Positions 14,496 through 28,013 of a DNA stretch of 45,556 bases are shown here, piece by piece (positions within the stretch are counted from its first letter, which is position 1; every line of letters begins with the position of its first letter). The notes below the pieces were generated by a model, which did not search any database, was not told the DNA's origin, and was given only the letters and a program-made list of their open reading frames with translations. Source of the DNA: Pseudomonadota bacterium (GTDB lineage Bacteria; Pseudomonadota; Gammaproteobacteria; Burkholderiales; Rhodocyclaceae); assembly GCA_018262235.1 (NCBI GenBank), contig JAGTRY010000018.1, forward strand, positions 1 through 45,556, given 5' to 3'. A program made the position numbers and the translations under genes.

Positions 14496-17147
14496 TCATA
14501 CAACAATATTAACAAGCCGGCCCGGCACCACGATGACTTTCTTCGCAGGCTTGCCGTCCATGAACTTCTGTGCAGCGTCTGTGGCAATCGCCAGGGCTTC
14601 GATGGCCTTGTTGTCGGCACCGGCCGGCACCTTCACCGAGCCGCGCGTCTTGCCCAGCACTTGCAGGACGAGTTCGATCTCGTCCTGCACCAGCGCGGCT
14701 TCGAGCGGCTCCGGCCAGGGCGCCGACAGAATGTCATCGCCATAGCCGAGATCGGCCCACAGCGTGTGGGTGATGTGCGGGGTGATGGGCGAGAGCACGC
14801 GCAGCAGGATGCCGAAACATTCTTCGATGACCTCGGCAGCAATGCCAGTGTCGCGTGGTGCTTTCTCCAGCGCGTTGAGCATCTTCATGCACGAGGAGGC
14901 TACGGTGTTGAACTGCTGCTTGCCCAGGTCGTAATTGGCCTGCTTGAGCAGCAGATGGATCTCGCGGCGCAGCGCAGCGAGATTATCCGGCAGCTTGTCG
15001 GCATTGAGCTTGCGCTGGCCCGGGAGCTGCGGCTGGATCTGGCTGGCGAAGAGGTGACCGAACGCCCACACGCGTTTCAGGAAGCGGTAGCTGCCTTCGA
15101 TGCCCGCATCGGACCACTCGAGCGTCTGCTCGGGCGGCGCGGTGAACATCATGAAGAAGCGCGAGGTGTCGGCGCCGTATTGCTCGATCATCGCATTCGG
15201 GTCGACGCCGTTGCGCTTGCTCTTGGACATCGTGCCGTAGCCACCGTAGTCGACGGGGTTGCCGTCGCGGATCGCGGTGGCACCGGTGACGCGGCCGGCT
15301 TCGTCCTTCTGCAGCGTGACTTCTTCAGGTGCAAACCATTCGATGCCGGTCTTGTCCGAGCGGCGCGAGAACAGGTGGTTGAGCACCATGCCTTGGGTGA
15401 GCAGGCGCTTGAAAGGCTCGCGGTAATTCACGAGTTTCAGGTCGCCCATCACCTTGGTCCAGAAGCGCGAGTAGAGCAGGTGAAGAATCGCGTGCTCGAT
15501 GCCGCCGATGTACTGGTCGACCGGCAGCCAGTAATTGACGCGCTCATCGACCATGGCGGCATCGTTGCCCGGTGTGGCAAAGCGCGCGTAGTACCAGGAC
15601 GAATCGACGAAGGTGTCCATGGTGTCCGTCTCGCGACGTGCCGGCTTGCCGCATTGGGGGCAGGCGCAGTTGAGGAAGTCCGGACGCTTGTGCAGCGGGT
15701 TGCCGGAGCCATCCGGCACGCAGTCTTCGGGCAGCACGACGGGCAGTTGGTCGTCGGGCACCGGCACCGAGCCGCAGTCATCGCAGTGGATGATGGGGAT
15801 GGGGCAGCCCCAGTAGCGCTGGCGAGAAATGCCCCAGTCGCGCAGGCGCCACTGGATCTTTTTCTCGCCGATGTTTTTCGCAGTGAGGTCGGCAGCGATT
15901 GCTTCAACCGCTGCTTCGTAGCCGAGACCATCGTATTTGCCGGAGTTGAGACACTGGCCGTTCTTGCTGCCGTACCACTCTTCCCAAGCATCGGTAGAGT
16001 AGGTTTTGCCCTCCAGGCCGACGACCTGGATGATCGGCAGACTGTATTTCTTCGCGAAGGCGAAATCGCGCTCGTCATGCGAGGGTACGCCCATCACCGC
16101 ACCATCGCCGTATGACATCAACACGTAGTTGCCGACCCACACTTCGACCTGCTCACCCGTGAGCGGGTGGGTGACGAAGAGGCCGGTGGGCAAGCCTTCC
16201 TTCTCCATGGTCGCCATGTCGGCTTCCATGACTGAACCGTGCTTGCACTTCTCGATGAAGGCGGCGAGCGCGGGATTGTTCTTCGCGGCATGCGTGGCGA
16301 GCGGGTGCTCGGCGGCGACGGCGCAGAAGGTGACACCCATGATGGTGTCGGCACGCGTGGTGAACACCCACAGCTTGCCTTCATTGATCAGCGCGCCGGT
16401 TTCGTCCTTGATCTCGTGCGGGAAGGCGAAGCGCACGCCGGTGCTCTTGCCGATCCAGTTGGCCTGCATGAGCTTGACGCGTTCGGGCCAGTCGCCCAGC
16501 GTGTCGAGGTCGTTCAGGAGTTCGTTGGCGTATTGCGTGATGGCGAGGTAGTAGCCGGGGATCTCGCGCTTTTCGACCACCGCGCCGGTGCGCCAGCCAC
16601 GACCGTCAATGACCTGTTCGTTGGCGAGCACGGTCTGGTCGACCGGGTCCCAGTTCACGACTTGCGTCTTCTTGTAGGCGATGCCTTTTTCGAGCATGCG
16701 CAGGAACAGCCACTGGTTCCACTTGTAGTACTCGGGCTTGCAGGTGGCGAGCTCGCGGCTCCAGTCAATCGCGAAACCCAGCGACTTCAACTGGCCCTTC
16801 ATGTATTCGATGTTGTCGTAGGTCCACTTGGCGGGCGGCACCTTGTTGGCAATCGCCGCGTTCTCGGCGGGCAGGCCGAAGGCGTCCCAGCCCATCGGCT
16901 GCATGACGTTGTAGCCACGCATCTTGTGGAAGCGCGTCAGCACATCGCCGATGGTGTAGTTGCGCACATGGCCCATGTGCAGCTTGCCCGAGGGGTAGGG
17001 GAACATCGACAGGCAGTAGTACTTTGGCCTGGTCGTATCTTCGACGGCCTTGAACGCGGCAGTGCGTTCCCAGAAGGCCTGGGCGGTTTTTTCGGTGGCG
17101 GTGTGGTTGTACTGGGGGTTGAGTTTTTCCTGCGAGGGCGACGACAT
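14496..17147 (-). CDS. leuS: Leucyl-tRNA synthetase
   Basis: 883 residues from the ATG at 17147 ([14 protein letters not shown]). The frame extends to an ATG at 17192, but a promoter -10 lies on that codon and the first 15 residues have no family similarity. Class I signatures: HMGH at 57-60 in [17 protein letters not shown] and [12 protein letters not shown] with the KMSKS-type loop at 639-643. The editing domain (CP1) is present between them ([20 protein letters not shown]). It charges tRNA-Leu with leucine. The gene leads the operon leuS > lptE > holA. Confidence 0.97.
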
Positions 17148-17190
17148 GGCGGATCCGGTTGGCAAGGGTTGGCATTTGCGCGAATTCGCC

Positions 17191-17199
17191 ATTTTAGCA
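17191..17199 (-). promoter_or_regulatory. Extended -10 promoter of leuS
   Basis: Minus-strand TGCTAAAAT (TG-n-TAAAAT extended -10). Transcription would start about 35-40 bases before the leuS ATG at 17147. The -35 is poor, as tolerated with an extended -10. Confidence 0.5.
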
Positions 17200-17256
17200 G
17201 GCTAGGGGGCTGACAGGCGCTTCGTGCGGGTCTGTCATGCCAGCGTGCTTGAGCGA

Positions 17257-19155
17257 TCAGTCGGGGTGCTGGTTCTTCAAGTCCTGCAATTCACGCTCGG
17301 CAAGGCGCAGGGCGGTGATGTCGAGGTTCGCGCAGACGATCACCGGGCGTCCTTCGGGATCTTCGCAGGTCGTTTTGGCGACCAGCAGCACGCGCTCTTC
17401 ACCGGTTTGCGAGAGGATTTGGTGCTCTTCCTTGAACAGATTCCGCCCGGCCAGGACCGCGAGATCTTCCTCACGTGATTTCCGGGCGCGTTCGTGGTGC
17501 TCCACAATCGCGCCGGCCAGCAGTTCAGGCTGTCTCTGGTAGAGCGGATTGGCGTGACACATGGCGGATGCCAGGTCTTCCATGCTGCAGCCGACGGCCG
17601 GGAAATCCGGGGGCAGGTTGCGGCGACGCAGAAATGCCTGATTGACCCGCACGTAGCGGCTGTCTGCATCCTTGACATAGAACTCTTCGGGGATCAGGTC
17701 GATCAGACGCTGGGTGAAGGTCTGGGTGCGTCCAAGCAGGGCGGTTTCGCGTGCAAGGGCATCGGCCAGATGACGTTCGGCCAGGCGCCATTTGGTGACA
17801 TCGAAGAATGCCGTGACAATGACCGGCCGACCTTCGCCATCCAGGCATCCGCCTTTGTATACGGTACGGAATCGTTCTTCTCCGGTGACGCTGTGGAGGT
17901 TGTGTTCTTCCTTGACGAGGATGTCGCCGGCCAGCACTTCGTAATCTTCCTGCAGCGACAGGGATGCCCGCTGAAGTTCGGTTTCCTGTGCTGCCCGGGG
18001 AACCCCTTCCAGCAATTTGGCGACTTCAAGCGGATTCTTGCCAAGCAGTTCTTCGCGCGAGCGCCCGCGCTCGCGAACGAAGGCGTCATTGACCATCAGG
18101 TAACGGCAATGGGCATCCTTGACGTGAACGGGGTGCGGGATGACATCGATCAGGCGCTGGATGAAGGACTGGGCTTGTTCGCGCCGGGCCACTTCGCGTT
18201 GCAGGGCTTGCTTGAGATTGCGTTCGGCCATCCGCCAGGGCGTGATATCGAAATTGCTGCCGACGATGACGGTGCGCCCTTCAGCATCTTCACAGGTCTG
18301 TTTGGATACGATGGTGAAACGTGCTTTGCCGGTCTGCGGGTCGATGCTCTCTTCTTCGCGGAAGACCGACATGCCATCCAGGACGCGCAGGTCTTCCTGA
18401 TTGATCATCGAGGCGTAGGCCGGATCGCGGAACAGATCGAAGGTGGTGGTGCCGATCAGTTCCTTGCGGCTGCGATTATGCAGGGCACAGAAGGCCGAAT
18501 TGACCTGTGTGTAATGGCTTTGATTGCCTTCAATGTGTTTGATGTAGACCGATTGAGGGATCACGTCCATCAGGCTTTGCACGAAGGTCTGGCTGCGTGC
18601 CAGCAGGGTTTGCTCGCGTTCGAGCAGCTGATCCATGTTCGCGTTGTTTCCGCTCAGGTTCTCCCACAGCAGCACGATCCGGGCGCTGCCATCCGGCGCG
18701 GTCAAGGACAGACCGTGGGCGCGCAACATCGCCATCTTGCCTGTTTGCGGTAACAGCGCTTCTGCACTGCCACTGCCTTTCTCCAGGGTCCGCTGGTGTA
18801 GTCTGGCGACGAATTCCTGCCAGGCCTCCGGCAGCGCAGACAGGGTATCGTCCGGACGCTCGCTGGCAGACGCCTTGAGCTGTGCGAGTGCCAGGAAAGC
18901 AGGGTTGGCGATCAGGGTCCGGGCTTGTGCATCAAGGAGCAAAACCGGCTGGGTGGTGTTATTCAAAGCGGCATGTGTCGAGGACTCACAGGCCTGCAGG
19001 ATTTCGCGATGGTGTCGCAGGCTGCGCCAGGGGAGCGGCAACATGAGCATGGCGGAGAGTAGAGCGGCCAACCATGCTGGCAGTGCGAACAGCCATGTCG
19101 CAATGACCATGCCCAGCATGATCAATCCGCTCGCCAACATCTGTCGCTTGTTCAT
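17257..19155 (-). CDS. Membrane-anchored PAS-array protein without output domain
   Basis: 632 residues. Two hydrophobic helices at about 8-25 and 27-45 form an N-terminal hairpin anchor. A divergent PAS domain follows (about 60-170), then three modules of one PAS subfamily at about 205-320, 335-455 and 475-620. Each opens with a signal-helix segment and a motif like RLIDVIPxPVYVKD, continues VNxAFxRERG, and closes with an FDITxWRLAER-type helix. The protein stops right after the last such helix (LAERELQDLKNQHPD): no kinase, GGDEF, EAL, MCP or DNA-binding domain follows, and the next bases lead into the leuS promoter, so it is not an obvious frameshift remnant. The same modules occur in the hybrid kinase upstream (19398-22655). 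Its role is unknown; an accessory sensor or partner of that kinase is an inference. Confidence 0.88.
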   Translation of the reverse strand: MNKRQMLASGLIMLGMVIATWLFALPAWLAALLSAMLMLPLPWRSLRHHREILQACESSTHAALNNTTQPVLLLDAQARTLIANPAFLALAQLKASASERPDDTLSALPEAWQEFVARLHQRTLEKGSGSAEALLPQTGKMAMLRAHGLSLTAPDGSARIVLLWENLSGNNANMDQLLEREQTLLARSQTFVQSLMDVIPQSVYIKHIEGNQSHYTQVNSAFCALHNRSRKELIGTTTFDLFRDPAYASMINQEDLRVLDGMSVFREEESIDPQTGKARFTIVSKQTCEDAEGRTVIVGSNFDITPWRMAERNLKQALQREVARREQAQSFIQRLIDVIPHPVHVKDAHCRYLMVNDAFVRERGRSREELLGKNPLEVAKLLEGVPRAAQETELQRASLSLQEDYEVLAGDILVKEEHNLHSVTGEERFRTVYKGGCLDGEGRPVIVTAFFDVTKWRLAERHLADALARETALLGRTQTFTQRLIDLIPEEFYVKDADSRYVRVNQAFLRRRNLPPDFPAVGCSMEDLASAMCHANPLYQRQPELLAGAIVEHHERARKSREEDLAVLAGRNLFKEEHQILSQTGEERVLLVAKTTCEDPEGRPVIVCANLDITALRLAERELQDLKNQHPD

Positions 19156-19397
19156 GTCCCGTGCCTGCTAGGTTTGTATTCCTGCGGTCATATTCTGGAT
19201 TCTGCCTGCCAGCTTACTGCAAGGGTGCCCGCTTCTTTCTCTGCGGGCCAGGGAAAGTACGGAATTCGCATTTTTTAACAAAAATCCTTGATTTTCGTGG
19301 TTTTGAGGACACATCGCCTGTCCGGATCAGGCTCTGGCTGTCCGGCGTGTGACATCTGCATGATCGCATACGCCGGGGGATTCCGGGTTGGCTTCGG

Positions 19398-22655
<3,258 letters not shown>

Positions 22656-22828
22656 GTCCCGAAAAACCTGTGGTGTCGGTGCGAACACTTCAGGACGTGA
22701 TCGCTTGTCTGCTTAATCTACCAGTATCTGGCAGGCCTTGCGGCCACAGCCATCAGTAAGTGTCTGATTCCTGCTTCATAAAGCGGATATGCCCGAAGGT
22801 GCCTGACGATCACAGAGGGAGGCATCCT

Positions 22829-22855: not shown

Positions 22856-22908
22856 CCAAAGATGAGATTGGCCGGCATTCTGCCGTCCCTGCATGCGAGA
22901 ACCATTTG

Positions 22909-23829
22909 ATGGATTATTCCGACGTTCAGCCTGAAGCCAGAATTCTGATCATTGATGATTCGTCCACCAGTATCCGTCTGGTGAGCCACTTTGTACGTGA
23001 CATGGGGACCGTGCATTTCGCCACCAGTGGCGAGATGGGCCTGAAAATGGCGCTTGACTTGCAACCCGATCTGATTTTGCTGGATATGGAGATGCCCGGC
23101 ATGGATGGTCTGGATACGTGTCGGCGACTCAAGAAACAACGTGTTCTCGAGAATGTACCGGTCATTTTCATTACCGCCCATAGCGGGGTGGATTACGAGG
23201 TGGCCGGTTTTGCTGCAGGCGCCGTGGATTTCATCGGCAAGCCACTCACCGAGATGATCGTGCGCGCCCGTGTGCGCACTCACTTGACGCTCAAGCGCCA
23301 GGGAGATCTGTTGCGCGAGCAGGCCATGCGGGATGGGCTGACCGGGATTCACAATCGCCGCGCTTTTGACGAGCGTTTCCTGCTGGAATGTCGGCGCCAT
23401 CGTCGTAATCCGGAATCGCTGGGACTGGCGCTCATCGATATCGATAATTTCAAAGCCTACAACGATTTGTATGGGCATCAGGCGGGAGACGCCTGTCTGC
23501 GCGAAGTGGCCCAGGTGATCGATGCCAATGTCCGCCGCCCCGGAGAGTTTGCGGCGCGCTATGGTGGCGAGGAATTCGCCGTAATCCTGCCGCATTGCGC
23601 GGGTGACGAGGTGCAACGTTTTGGTGCTTTTCTGGTGAGTCAGATTCGTGTGCTGGCGCTGCCGCATGAGGCTTCCGCGGCGGGGGTGGTGACGATCAGC
23701 GTCGGCGTCATTGCGGGAAAACCTGTCGCAGAGGATGCCGAGCAACAATTTCTGAGCAGTGCGGATGCGGCCTTGTATCGCGCCAAAGCTGCCGGACGGA
23801 ATTGTGTCCGCCTGGCAGGGAGAGAGTAA
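22909..23829 (+). CDS. Response regulator with GGDEF output (diguanylate cyclase)
   Basis: 306 residues. The receiver domain (about 10-125) has acidic Asp16-Asp17, phospho-acceptor Asp59 in LILLDMEMPGMDG and Lys111 in the KP loop. The GGDEF domain (about 138-302) has RDGLTGIHNRRAF, the metal and substrate segment LIDIDNFKAYND, and an intact GGEEF active site at 219-223, so it should make cyclic di-GMP (PleD/WspR-like). The product-inhibition site, normally RxxD five residues before GGEEF, reads RPGE at 210-213, which may loosen feedback inhibition. The ATG at 22909 is chosen over an adjacent TTG. Its stop overlaps the start of the CHASE kinase by one base, so the kinase is the likely phosphodonor. 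Confidence 0.95.
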   Translation: MDYSDVQPEARILIIDDSSTSIRLVSHFVRDMGTVHFATSGEMGLKMALDLQPDLILLDMEMPGMDGLDTCRRLKKQRVLENVPVIFITAHSGVDYEVAGFAAGAVDFIGKPLTEMIVRARVRTHLTLKRQGDLLREQAMRDGLTGIHNRRAFDERFLLECRRHRRNPESLGLALIDIDNFKAYNDLYGHQAGDACLREVAQVIDANVRRPGEFAARYGGEEFAVILPHCAGDEVQRFGAFLVSQIRVLALPHEASAAGVVTISVGVIAGKPVAEDAEQQFLSSADAALYRAKAAGRNCVRLAGRE

Positions 23830-26800
23830 TGGACTCCGGCGATGCAGCGGGGGCAGGGGAACGCGTGGCAGCATTGCATCAAGGCCGGATCCGGCGTGTG
23901 TTGCCATGGTTGGTACTGAGCCTGGGCCTGCTGGGAACGCTAGTGGCCTGGAAGACCGTGTCGGATTACGTCCGTACGCGTCAGGAGAATGCTTTTCACG
24001 CTGCCGTGAGTGATGCGCGTCGGGATATCGAGCAGCGGATGGAAAATTACCGGCAGATTTTGCTCGGTTTCGGGGGGCTGATTCATGCCGACAATGCAGT
24101 CAGCCGCGAGCAGTTCAATACCTATTACCGATCGCTGGCACTCAAGCATCGTTATCCCGGGGTAGTGGGGGTCGGTTATGCCATCGTATTTGGCCCGGAA
24201 ATGCTGGCAGAGCATGAGCGCCAGATGCGTGCTGAAGGCTTCGCAAATTACCGGGTTCTGCCGCCTGGGCGGCGTGAGCGGTACAGCGCGGTCATCTATG
24301 GCGAGCCATTCGCCGAGGACGGTTCGCCGCCGCGATCCTTGGGGATGGACATGCTTACCGAGGCCACCCGACGACGTGCCATGGACTGGGCACGTGATAA
24401 CGCGAGCACCGCGCTGACGGGGAAATTGCGTCTGTTCCTTGGTACGGATGCGGCAGATCAGATCAGTGTGGTCATGTATGTACCGGTGTATCGTGCGCAT
24501 GCCATGCTGGAATCCCTTCAGGACCGGCGCCAGGCATTGCTGGGCTACGTATTTGCCGGGTTCCGTTTGAATGAATTGCTGGAGGGCATTTTCGGGCAGC
24601 ATTGGGATATCGGCCTGGATCTGCAACTCTATGAGGGTGGGCAGACTGATGCCAGACAGTTGCTTTATGACTCGACCGTTCGGAACAAACCGGATCTGCT
24701 CGATGACGAGGACGATCCGGAACGTCTGAATATCACGGTCCCGATCAATTTGCCGGGCGGGAAGTGGACGGCTGCATTCCGGGCGCGCAGTGACTGGATC
24801 GGGCGTACGTCAAGCAGCTTGCCGGCCCTGATTCTGTATGGCGGCCTGGTGATCGACGGAATGCTGTTTGCGCTCTTGATGCTGTATGGCCGTTCGGAAC
24901 AGAGCATCTGGACCAAGGCCGAGGCGCGTGCGGCAGCGATGACCTCTGAACTGCGTGCCAGCGAAGCGCGTTTCCGCACGGTGGTGCAGGCCAGTCCTGG
25001 CGGCATGCTGCTGGTGGATCCGCATGGGCGGATCGAACTGGCGAATGCCGAGGCAGAGCGCATGTTTGCCTACGAAGCTGACGGGCTGCTCGGTGCGGGG
25101 ATCGATGAACTGCTGCCACACCGGATGCGGAACGCCCATCAGATATTGCGGGAAAACTACATGCGCTTACCGGTCAACCGGGTGATGGGGGAAGGGCGGG
25201 CGCTTTGTGGTCTGCGGTGCGATGGTAGCGAGTTTCCACTGGAGATTGCGCTCAGTCAGGTGCATACCGAGCGGGGCGTATTGGTCCTGGCGGCCGTGAC
25301 CGATATTACCGAGCGCCACACCGCGGCCATGCGCGAGGCGGCAACGCGGGCAATGCTGCAAGGGGTGATTGATGGTGCCACCGCGTTTTCGATCATTGCG
25401 TGCGATCCGTCCGGCTTGATCACCCTGTTCAATACGGGTGCGCAACGCATGCTGGGCTACAGTGCAGAAGAAATGGTGGGGAAGCAGTCCTCGCTGGTCC
25501 TGCATGATCCGGCCGAACTGAAAGCGCGTGGCGAAGAATTGTCACAAACCCTGGGCGTGCACATCGAGGGCTACGACATTCTGGTTCATGCTGCACGGGC
25601 GGGACAGACCGAGACGCGTGAATGGTTTTTCATCCGCAAGGATGGCCGTTCCGTGCCGGTGAGTCTGACGGTCAGTGCCATTCCGGGGCCGACCGGTGTG
25701 CCGACCGGTTTCATCGGGATTGCTTACGATGTCAGTGCCCAACGCATGGCCGAGCATGCCCTGGCCGAAGCCCGTGATCATGCGGAAGCTACCAGCCGGG
25801 CCAAGACCGAGTTCCTCTCCAACATGAGCCATGAAATCCGCACACCGCTCAACGCGGTGCTGGGGATGGCGCAGTTGCTGGGGTTCGGGAAACTGGATGC
25901 CGAACAACGCGAATACCTGCGCATGATCGAGGTCTCCGGCAAGACCCTGCTTGGGGTACTGAACGATATTCTGGACTTCTCGAAGATAGAGGCCGGCCAG
26001 CTGGAAATATCGTCACATCCCTTCTTCCTGCAGGACATGACCGATGCCCTGGCCGACATCATGCAGGCCAATGCTGTGGGCAAGAATCTCGACATGTCCA
26101 TCGAGATCGATCCGGCTGTGCCGGTCAGCTTGCTGGGCGATCAGCTGCGCTTGCAGCAGATCCTGATCAATCTGGTTGGCAATGCCATCAAATTCACGCA
26201 TCAGGGCGAAGTGCGCTTGTACGTCCATCTGCTTGAGCGTCGCGAGGAGTCAGTACTGGTCCAGTTTGTGGTGGAAGATACAGGGATCGGCATGAGCGAG
26301 GAGCAGATCGGGCATCTGTTTGTGCCGTTCTCGCAAATCGATAATTCGATGACGCGCAAATATGGCGGCTCTGGTCTGGGGCTGGCGATCTGCAAGCGGC
26401 TGGTCGAGATCATGGGGGGGCAGATCGGGGTGAGCAGCGCGCCGGGGCAGGGCAGCCGTTTCCGCTTCACGGTATGGCTCAAGCGTGCGCGCACCGAGCA
26501 GGCCGCGCTGCCGAATTCCCTGGATGATTTGCGGGTGCGTGACCTGCTACTGGTTGAAAGCAATCCCACGCTGGCCGGGTCCATCACTTCAGCCGTAAAA
26601 TCCTTGGGGATCCAGTGCGAGCAATGTGCGAGCGAGAGTGAAGCCATTGCGCATATTGTCGCGCGGGGGCGGCCGCACGATGTTGTCCTGATCGACTGGA
26701 ACATGCCGGATCAGGGCCGTAGCCTGCTGATTTCCCAACTGCACGGGGAGCTTGCCCTGCAGCACTCCATCGTGTTGGGCGTTTCCTCCGCATATGGTCG

Positions 26801-28013
26801 CGAAGCCCTGAATGCCGATCCGCTGGCGGTGTCGCTGGATGGCGTGCTGATCAAGCCGGTCACCAGTTCGACTTTCCTGGATTGTGTGATGCAGGCATGT
26901 GCCAAGCGTGACAGCTCGCGCGACTTGCGCAAGCTCATGCAGATTCCCGAGTTGCAACTGCGTGCCCGTTCCTTGCGCGGTGCGCGCTTGTTGCTGGTGG
27001 AGGACAACGCGATCAACCAGATGGTGGCGCGCGGAATCCTGCAATTGGCCGGTGCGGTGATCGATGTCGCCAGCAACGGGCAGGAAGCGGTCGATCGTCT
27101 GCGCCGCCATCCCGGCTTGTACGTGATGGTCCTGATGGATGTCCAGATGCCGGTCATGGATGGATGCACGGCCACCCGCATCATCCGTGACGAGCTGCAG
27201 CTTGATCTGCCGGTGGTGGCGATGACTGCCGGGGTCTTGCCGTCGCAGCGCAGTGAATGCCTTGCGGCCGGCATGACGGATTTCCTCGCCAAGCCGCTGG
27301 ATGCCCAGCTGACCATCGATACGCTGGAAGCGGTTCTGCTGGGGAATCGTGGCGCGGAGGATCCGGTCCAGCCAGTGTTGTCGGACCCGCAAGACGGCCG
27401 AGCTGCGGAAAGTGCGCTGATGGAAAGCGTGCCCGGTCTCGACCAAGAGTTGGCGCTGGCGCGCATCGGTGGCAATCGTGCCTTGTATGGCGAGTTGTTG
27501 CTGCAGTTCCGGATCGAAATCGCCGGCTTGTCGAATGATACCCAGAACGCCCTGGCGAACTGTCAGCTGAGGGATGCCGAGCGAGGCTTCCACACGATCA
27601 AATCCACGGCGGCGAGCATCGGCGCGATAACGCTGGTCGAGTGGGCACAGGCAGCGGAGTCGGCTGTACGTACGGGCGATATCCCACGGGCGCAAGCGCT
27701 TTACAACGACATCCACGATGAACTGGAGCGTCTGTTGCCCGGGATCTCACGCCTGCTGGAGCAACGCAAGTTGTCCCCTGCCCACGCAGCCTCGGGCCGT
27801 ACCGGCGTGGATCAGGTGGCGCTGGAGCAACTGCTCGAACAGTTGCGCCGTCATGATCTGGATGCGCTGGATGTCTTTGAATATCTGCGCGCGGGCTTGC
27901 CGGGCGCATTCGGCGCCGCCGATGCGGAGCGTCTGACCCTGCTGGTCAGCGGGCTGGATTTCGATCCGGCCGTCGCACTGCTGGAGAAACTCATGGGGAT
28001 GAGGATCGAGTGA
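23829..28013 (+). CDS. CHASE-domain hybrid histidine kinase: CHASE, two PAS, HisKA-HATPase, two REC, Hpt
   Basis: 1394 residues from the ATG at 23829 (TAATG overlap with the preceding stop; GGGAGAGAG just upstream). Order: membrane helix about 23-42; periplasmic CHASE domain about 60-300 (FGGLIHADNAVSREQFNTYY, YPGVVGVGYAIVFG); second helix about 332-353; PAS about 375-495 and about 505-640; HisKA with NMSHEIRTPLN (His668); HATPase with NLVGNAIKFT, DTGIG and GSGLGL; receiver 1 about 905-1025, which keeps Asp956 but has LLVESN where an ED/DD pair is usual; receiver 2 about 1052-1172 with LLVEDN and Asp1104, canonical; and Hpt with His1255 in FHTIKSTAAS. Receiver 1 may be a regulatory pseudo-receiver. 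The coupled REC-GGDEF protein is the obvious target, giving signal-controlled c-di-GMP (inference from operon structure). Confidence 0.95.
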   Translation: MDSGDAAGAGERVAALHQGRIRRVLPWLVLSLGLLGTLVAWKTVSDYVRTRQENAFHAAVSDARRDIEQRMENYRQILLGFGGLIHADNAVSREQFNTYYRSLALKHRYPGVVGVGYAIVFGPEMLAEHERQMRAEGFANYRVLPPGRRERYSAVIYGEPFAEDGSPPRSLGMDMLTEATRRRAMDWARDNASTALTGKLRLFLGTDAADQISVVMYVPVYRAHAMLESLQDRRQALLGYVFAGFRLNELLEGIFGQHWDIGLDLQLYEGGQTDARQLLYDSTVRNKPDLLDDEDDPERLNITVPINLPGGKWTAAFRARSDWIGRTSSSLPALILYGGLVIDGMLFALLMLYGRSEQSIWTKAEARAAAMTSELRASEARFRTVVQASPGGMLLVDPHGRIELANAEAERMFAYEADGLLGAGIDELLPHRMRNAHQILRENYMRLPVNRVMGEGRALCGLRCDGSEFPLEIALSQVHTERGVLVLAAVTDITERHTAAMREAATRAMLQGVIDGATAFSIIACDPSGLITLFNTGAQRMLGYSAEEMVGKQSSLVLHDPAELKARGEELSQTLGVHIEGYDILVHAARAGQTETREWFFIRKDGRSVPVSLTVSAIPGPTGVPTGFIGIAYDVSAQRMAEHALAEARDHAEATSRAKTEFLSNMSHEIRTPLNAVLGMAQLLGFGKLDAEQREYLRMIEVSGKTLLGVLNDILDFSKIEAGQLEISSHPFFLQDMTDALADIMQANAVGKNLDMSIEIDPAVPVSLLGDQLRLQQILINLVGNAIKFTHQGEVRLYVHLLERREESVLVQFVVEDTGIGMSEEQIGHLFVPFSQIDNSMTRKYGGSGLGLAICKRLVEIMGGQIGVSSAPGQGSRFRFTVWLKRARTEQAALPNSLDDLRVRDLLLVESNPTLAGSITSAVKSLGIQCEQCASESEAIAHIVARGRPHDVVLIDWNMPDQGRSLLISQLHGELALQHSIVLGVSSAYGREALNADPLAVSLDGVLIKPVTSSTFLDCVMQACAKRDSSRDLRKLMQIPELQLRARSLRGARLLLVEDNAINQMVARGILQLAGAVIDVASNGQEAVDRLRRHPGLYVMVLMDVQMPVMDGCTATRIIRDELQLDLPVVAMTAGVLPSQRSECLAAGMTDFLAKPLDAQLTIDTLEAVLLGNRGAEDPVQPVLSDPQDGRAAESALMESVPGLDQELALARIGGNRALYGELLLQFRIEIAGLSNDTQNALANCQLRDAERGFHTIKSTAASIGAITLVEWAQAAESAVRTGDIPRAQALYNDIHDELERLLPGISRLLEQRKLSPAHAASGRTGVDQVALEQLLEQLRRHDLDALDVFEYLRAGLPGAFGAADAERLTLLVSGLDFDPAVALLEKLMGMRIE

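Follow-up and report, generated by a model that had tools for sequence, protein, structure and literature searches.

The usual picture of a bacterial sensor kinase is a homodimer with sensors of its own. PAS sensors without an effector are already known as a kind, and the family described here, PO-A, is a variant among them. Short LOV proteins and VVD (VIVID) are PAS-fold sensors of this sort and are, in the published accounts, thought or shown to act by homo- or heterodimerization (PMC4335406, PMC4039372); VVD, a LOV protein, is reported to inhibit the WCC through competitive heterodimerization (PMC4039372). RetS is described as a membrane sensor that silences a related kinase, GacS, by replacing one of its protomers (PMC12148439). 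In PpsR, helical PAS extensions are reported to set the oligomeric state, to form parallel dimers, and to be open to binding by a regulator (PMC3949515).

PO-A is encoded on a 45,556-nucleotide stretch of DNA from a member of the Rhodocyclaceae (GenBank assembly GCA_018262235.1, contig JAGTRY010000018.1, positions 1 to 45,556), called the window below (Table 1). The frame is intact from an ATG start, and the first residues, M-N-(K/R/G), are common to two of three orthologues, the third having an earlier start codon. The initial annotation described a membrane hairpin followed by four PAS domains and no output domain. Pfam and an AlphaFold2 model confirmed this layout, with the hairpin modeled at low confidence and PAS 1, which gave no match to a home-made PAS profile, called from the model. 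Membership in the PAS domain family is supported by a PAS_4 score of 92.4 bits against a curated cutoff of 23.1 and by the PAS folds in the model. The model, a single chain built from five aligned PAS-only proteins, had a mean pLDDT of 84 and a pTM of 0.37; the domains are therefore reliable, but their arrangement is not. The two hairpin helices (residues 4 to 22 and 27 to 38) reached a pLDDT of about 50 to 60, and Pro26 is invariant across the five aligned proteins. No HisKA, HATPase, GGDEF, EAL, or receiver domain was found in PO-A by Pfam at E values up to 1. The non-PAS matches at the same threshold, RRP14 (27.0 bits, above its cutoff of 22.4) and fvmRadSAM-pep (below its own cutoff), both fall on the linker helix at residues 479 to 505 and are taken as coiled-coil noise.

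Table 1. Features of the window discussed in the text (window coordinates; residue numbers are those of PO-A)
Feature	Position	Strand	Basis
leuS, start more likely near 17147	14496..17192	(-)	Orthologues, upstream alignment
TGCTAAAAT, -10-like element of the probable leuS promoter	17191..17199	(-)	Conservation upstream of leuS in genomes with and without a PAS-only gene
PAS-only membrane protein PO-A, 632 residues	17257..19155	(-)	ORF, Pfam, orthologues, AlphaFold2 model
C-terminal helix stub, residues 614-629 (a kinase would continue to the H-box here)	17269..17316	(-)	AlphaFold2, tail comparison
PAS 4 (terminal), residues 491-612	17320..17685	(-)	HMM 476-615, AlphaFold2
Helical insert-bearing stretch of PAS 4, residues 524-561 (38 residues)	17473..17586	(-)	Insert counts
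PAS 3, residues 343-452, with a 28-residue insert-type stretch	17800..18129	(-)	HMM 326-456, AlphaFold2, insert counts
Insert-bearing stretch of PAS 3, residues ~374-401	17953..18036	(-)	Insert counts
PAS 2, residues 202-303	18247..18552	(-)	Pfam PAS_4 198-296, AlphaFold2
PAS 1 (N-PAS), residues 71-166, divergent	18658..18945	(-)	AlphaFold2
Helical, probably membrane, hairpin, residues 4-38	19042..19146	(-)	Hydropathy, AlphaFold2 helices (low confidence), Pro26 column
Hybrid kinase (hairpin, four PAS, HisKA, HATPase, REC, HPT), candidate partner	19398..22688	(-)	Pfam, HMM, hydropathy
Response regulator with GGDEF, divergent from the kinase	22906..23829	(+)	Pfam
CHASE-PAS-PAS hybrid kinase with receivers and HPT	23802..28013	(+)	Pfam

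Like short LOV proteins and VVD, PO-A has no fused effector domain; whereas those are single flavin-binding LOV domains, PO-A is a membrane-anchored array of four PAS domains without the LOV flavin motif. That flavin-cysteine motif is NCRFLQ-like, and none was seen when the 632-residue sequence was read by eye. PO-A resembles RetS in being a membrane sensor related to a kinase, but RetS works through its own DHp domain, whereas PO-A has neither DHp nor HATPase, its chain ending 18 residues past the last DIT motif. The best Foldseek match of the PO-A model was PpsR (4hh2; E = 2.7e-14, 15% identity, TM-score of 0.22 by query), likewise a tandem PAS protein with helical extensions but a DNA-binding transcription factor. 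The PAS-array hybrid kinases and PAS-diguanylate cyclases of the genus have the same PAS module as PO-A and mostly the same 25-residue linker; in contrast to PO-A, they carry HisKA/HATPase or GGDEF, and the insert-type stretch described below occurs in 0 of the 100 modules examined. The HisKA and HATPase_c domains of a PAS-array hybrid histidine kinase are absent from PO-A and from six relatives as well.

The bases that follow PO-A had been assigned to the leuS promoter, and a conserved -10-like element 58 bp beyond the PO-A stop supports this assignment. The element reads TAAAAT in seven of eight genomes and TTACAAT in G006, and it is also present in genomes without a PAS-only gene. It overlaps the start listed for leuS (17192), so the actual start is probably close to 17147, and the conservation of the element indicates that the PO-A C terminus stops against the leuS promoter in the window. 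On the other side, 242 bp separate PO-A from the hybrid kinase gene. A consensus scan of positions 17150 to 19420 returned no promoters or terminators (shuffled sequences averaged 2.5 terminators and 0.4 promoters) and says nothing firm about cotranscription across this gap. Beyond the kinase, the response regulator-GGDEF gene overlaps the CHASE hybrid kinase gene by 28 bp (22906-28013(+)) and is possibly a phosphorelay partner.

We searched eight genomes of the genus (Uliginosibacterium and kin, the window's own included) with PO-A (cutoff of 1e-80), leuS, the neighboring kinase, and the N-terminal 185 residues (cutoff of 0.01). PAS-only genes were present in five of the eight. Copies of PO-A were found in the window, sp. 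31-16 (628 residues, 65% identity), UBA1310 (648 residues, 52%; a genome 89% complete), and U. aquaticum (46%), and copies of a paralogue, PO-B, in sp. 31-16 (633 residues), U. aquaticum (1,046 residues, six standard modules), and D. carminicum (about 895 residues, on a 5.2-kb contig). In a tree for which three modules were chosen from each gene (two from U. aquaticum PO-A), these seven PAS-only genes split into PO-A and PO-B groups with support of 100/99. A kinase or cyclase output domain is absent from all three PO-A orthologues and all three PO-B genes, the PO-B set having been chosen partly by this absence; the noncircular part of the PO-B evidence lies in the insert-type module, which none of the kinases and cyclases in the 31-gene comparison has. 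The PO-B genes matched the N terminus of the window's PO-A weakly (2e-5 and 0.0015), so that a diverged PO-B in G003, G006, or G007 may be missed. We inspected by eye the ends of nine further PAS-array frames lacking a kinase match: eight end in GGDEF sequence, and the ninth is a 257-residue piece of a split kinase.

In two wider genome samples, relatives may be missed because at most eight (family) or three (order) candidates were scored per genome. Four of 150 genomes in the family sample matched PO-A at 1e-60, the window's own included, all from this genus (1 of 68 genera), with the match in one of them, G003, due to its kinase; among 399 genomes of the order sample, only the window's own matched at 1e-50. 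Scanning GTDB contigs with short peptides gave eight loci, of which five came from Uliginosibacterium, UBA1310, or Dactylopiibacterium, two of them (L007 and L008) being the PAS-only gene itself, and three were weak cyanobacterial matches. Among the titles listed in searches of open papers, none described multi-PAS, output-less subunits.

Gene order around the family varies. PO-A adjoins leuS in three genomes and lies one gene away in the fourth, and leuS was the only other recurrent neighbor seen apart from kinase genes. The order is kinase-PO-A-leuS in the window, two-PAS kinase (715 residues, of another type)-PO-A-leuS in UBA1310, and two kinases-PO-B-PO-A-leuS in U. aquaticum, where the kinase is reached through PO-B. 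In sp. 31-16, PO-B and PO-A are flanked on one side by a pair identified by eye as proB/obgE-like and on the other by a GH6 gene that adjoins leuS; the cluster with the orthologous kinase is 53 to 58 kb away, the kinase itself at about 58 kb. In D. carminicum the PAS-only gene adjoins a 7TMR-DISM histidine kinase. The idea that the PAS-only gene always sits beside a PAS-array hybrid kinase is not supported as it stands: the neighbor differs in UBA1310, U. aquaticum, and D. carminicum, and sp. 31-16 has no adjacent kinase. Nevertheless, a kinase gene of one of three types is the neighbor in four of the five genomes, on the same strand in each (via PO-B in U. aquaticum). In G003 and G006, where the searches yielded no PAS-only gene, a kinase of the same broad group lies next to leuS; the core of the G006 kinase forms a sister to the 1096-type (91/91), and that of the G003 kinase belongs to the same wider group. 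The association between PAS-only and kinase genes is real but loose, and gene order argues for a wider or changing partner set. Separately, the GH6 (glycosyl hydrolase family 6) protein encoded between PO-A and leuS in sp. 31-16 carries a poly-serine stretch (L015:6658-7872(-)).

Three of the PAS modules of PO-A had been matched to those of the upstream kinase. The two proteins do share 44% identity over 442 residues, but no window PO-A module groups with the modules of that kinase in a PAS tree with 121 modules (120 columns, many weak forks, D. carminicum PAS-only gene left out). Recent copying of PO-A from its neighbor, which this tree does not bear out, was rejected. Several PAS-only modules group across species: four at PO-A position 2 (100/98), five terminal insert modules (100/94), and, at position 1, six together with one very long-branched kinase module (100/90). 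The PO-B second modules pair together (100/95), and one internal U. aquaticum PO-B module falls with cyclase first modules (98/91). Overall, the PAS-only modules form no single clade, with six changes on the tree, at least three of them forced.

What sets half of the PAS-only modules apart is the stretch before the E-D motif, which we assign to the region around helix F-alpha. Aligning 126 modules (31 genes) showed that this stretch spans 13 to 18 residues in the 83 kinase modules and 15 to 16 in the 17 cyclase modules. An insert-type stretch is present in 13 of the 26 PAS-only modules, the other 13 having 15 to 16 residues, whereas every kinase and cyclase module examined (83 and 17) lacks one. 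One module in each of the seven PAS-only genes has a 28-residue stretch, and the terminal module of six of the seven has a stretch of 30 to 38 residues; both forms are absent from the kinase and cyclase modules. The exception is U. aquaticum PO-A (L017:8949-10772(-)), whose ordinary terminal module clusters with two modules from inside the neighboring PO-B of the same genome (99/97), so that a swap within the locus probably happened.

In contrast to the inserts, the helical linkers are shared. Linkers were located by a pattern that runs from one DIT motif to the F-x-Q-R-L-I-D motif that follows. Of those found, 18 of 22 in PAS-only proteins, 36 of 40 in kinases, and all 16 in cyclases are 25 residues long, with near-identical hydrophobic spacing in the three classes; the other four PAS-only linkers, of 22 residues, follow N-PAS. 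This common length would make in-register pairing with many proteins possible. The C terminus is more variable. PO-A had been said to stop directly after the signaling helix, and a short end-helix stub is indeed present, but the tail has 18 residues past the DIT motif, compared to 25 up to the H-box His in the neighboring kinase. Tail length varies between 9 and 36 residues across the seven PAS-only genes, and the helix pattern is absent from all three PO-B tails. Since the PO-A end helix does not extend far enough to meet a DHp domain and the PO-B tails lack the pattern, any pairing would need to run through the PAS cores and internal linkers. We also considered an origin from a truncated cyclase. 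The tail RLAERELQDLKN looks like a cyclase linker by eye; however, scoring, done with inconsistent anchors, ranked cyclase linkers lowest for the PO-A tails, and this origin is not claimed.

We tentatively favor the reading that PO-A is a PAS-array subunit, catalytically silent, that works in trans through hetero-oligomerization, like VIVID. The PAS cores and 25-residue linker helices of PO-A would pair with other PAS-array proteins, the candidates being hybrid kinases such as the neighbor, PAS-diguanylate cyclases, and the PO-B paralogue. Parallel dimers of linker helices, as in PpsR, would set a PAS-only chain in register with any PAS-array protein, and a ligand or redox state sensed by a specialized PAS domain could then shift the share of the catalytic partner present in active homodimers. 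We lean to this reading because most linkers share one length and pairing would be possible through the PAS cores; VVD is a precedent showing that such competition can work, and the replacement of a GacS protomer by RetS is another. It is also in line with the missing output domain in six relatives, the module groups of their own lineage, the inserts, the constraint on the gene (see below), and the same-strand adjacency to a kinase. Against it, equal linkers follow from common ancestry alone; a neighboring kinase is not a constant feature, and G003 and G006 have kinases of the group although no PAS-only gene turned up in them; the helix pattern is missing from the PO-B tails; dN/dS of the PAS-only gene over the five pairs other than window/sp. 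31-16 is higher than that of the 1096-type kinase over its six; and the PAS-only modules are not one clade, the terminal insert module having been replaced in U. aquaticum. The partnership with the neighboring hybrid kinase suggested in the initial annotation is structurally plausible through PAS cores and helices, but a fixed pairing with that kinase is unsupported. We consider it unlikely, although worth stating, that the family plugs in register, via its 25-residue linkers, into many PAS-array kinases and diguanylate cyclases, as a shared trans-acting sensor or a dominant-negative protomer that tunes the whole PAS network. More generally, a conserved and specialized sensor array without output would offer a natural setting in which to ask if kinases and cyclases share PAS sensors in trans, as with VVD in fungi, and the PO-A/PO-B pair with its kinase and cyclase relatives provides a defined list of candidate partners.

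The main rival to a trans-acting subunit, possible in our view but somewhat doubtful, is a self-contained sensor, in which a ligand is sensed by homodimers of a PAS-only protein or by PO-A/PO-B heterodimers, which then signal to a protein other than a PAS-array kinase or cyclase. In its favor, PO-A and PO-B adjoin and are co-oriented both in sp. 31-16, with no kinase beside them, and in U. aquaticum. The insert stretches, modeled as helices beside the PAS core, may likewise point to a specialized pocket or surface. The adjacent histidine kinase gene in four of five genomes, however, speaks against a sensor that works apart from kinases.

An improbable alternative is a ligand or redox buffer or a scaffold, holding a cofactor or organizing the membrane without regulated signaling. 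The lack of an output domain is consistent with such a role, as is the Cys of a K-x-x-C motif, kept in 24 of 26 PAS-only modules; the same Cys, however, is common in kinase modules (60 of 83) and cyclase modules (13 of 17) and so marks no separate role. Two cysteines of PAS 2, C223 and C288, are invariant in the five aligned PAS-only proteins. A special redox site at this pair was dropped from consideration, since 10 of 83 kinase modules have the same pair and C288 is found in most modules.

That PO-A is a truncated, decaying relative of a kinase or cyclase is very improbable and largely refuted. The gene does end against the leuS promoter, and PAS arrays are plastic in this genus, where a cyclase and a kinase of D. 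carminicum look split. However, the frame is intact at 37 to 65% identity in four aligned relatives and open in D. carminicum, and it has inserts of its own. The earlier view that PO-A is no truncated remnant was borne out: relatives with a kinase domain at the same place were sought, and all three PO-A orthologues lack an output domain there. Nor did we see the relaxed selection expected of a remnant, as NG86 dN/dS between PO-A orthologues was 0.22 to 0.47 over six pairs, with synonymous sites near saturation. (NG86 values are used throughout; of 19 pairs, YN00 worked for two, each of them a leuS pair.) Between the window and sp. 31-16, dN/dS was 0.22 for the PAS-only gene, 0.22 for the kinase, and 0.11 for leuS. 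In the other five PO-A pairs it was 0.23 to 0.47, compared to 0.20 to 0.26 over six pairs of the 1096-type kinase, which indicates that the PAS-only gene is under purifying selection but held less tightly than the kinase. By domain, the same window/sp. 31-16 comparison gave 0.27 for the last PAS and 0.20 for the tail (17 codons), so that both are constrained, and 0.45 for the third linker (34 codons); N-PAS is the least alike domain, at 46% identity to the nearest orthologue (residues 60 to 170). On sequence comparison, the PO-A family is real, conserved in one genus, and specialized rather than a decayed kinase, and decay is unlikely because the orthologues and the sister PO-B genes also end without a kinase or cyclase domain. 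An argument for a single gain on the species tree was dropped, since a leuS tree of seven genomes, without the partial leuS of UBA1310, does not resolve the positions of D. carminicum, G006, and G007.

A split kinase, whose missing catalytic half would be a separate polypeptide docking on the tail, is scarcely credible: the chain does end in a helix stub, but what follows it in the window, UBA1310, and U. aquaticum is leuS, and no stand-alone HisKA/HATPase frame of at least 90 residues lies beside a PAS-only gene in the stretches scanned.

Two further observations concern PAS arrays in the genus. In D. carminicum, the PAS-cyclase and the PAS-kinase each look split into two frames while the PAS-only gene is open (L088:293-2980(-), L089:1373-4072(+), and L076:5295-7774(+)); an assembly error is a possible cause of the split frames. 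Long kinases with six, seven, and eight tandem PAS domains occur in different species (L019:5323-9048(-), L018:7680-11756(+), and L074:5327-9565(+)), which indicates that module number changes over short evolutionary times.
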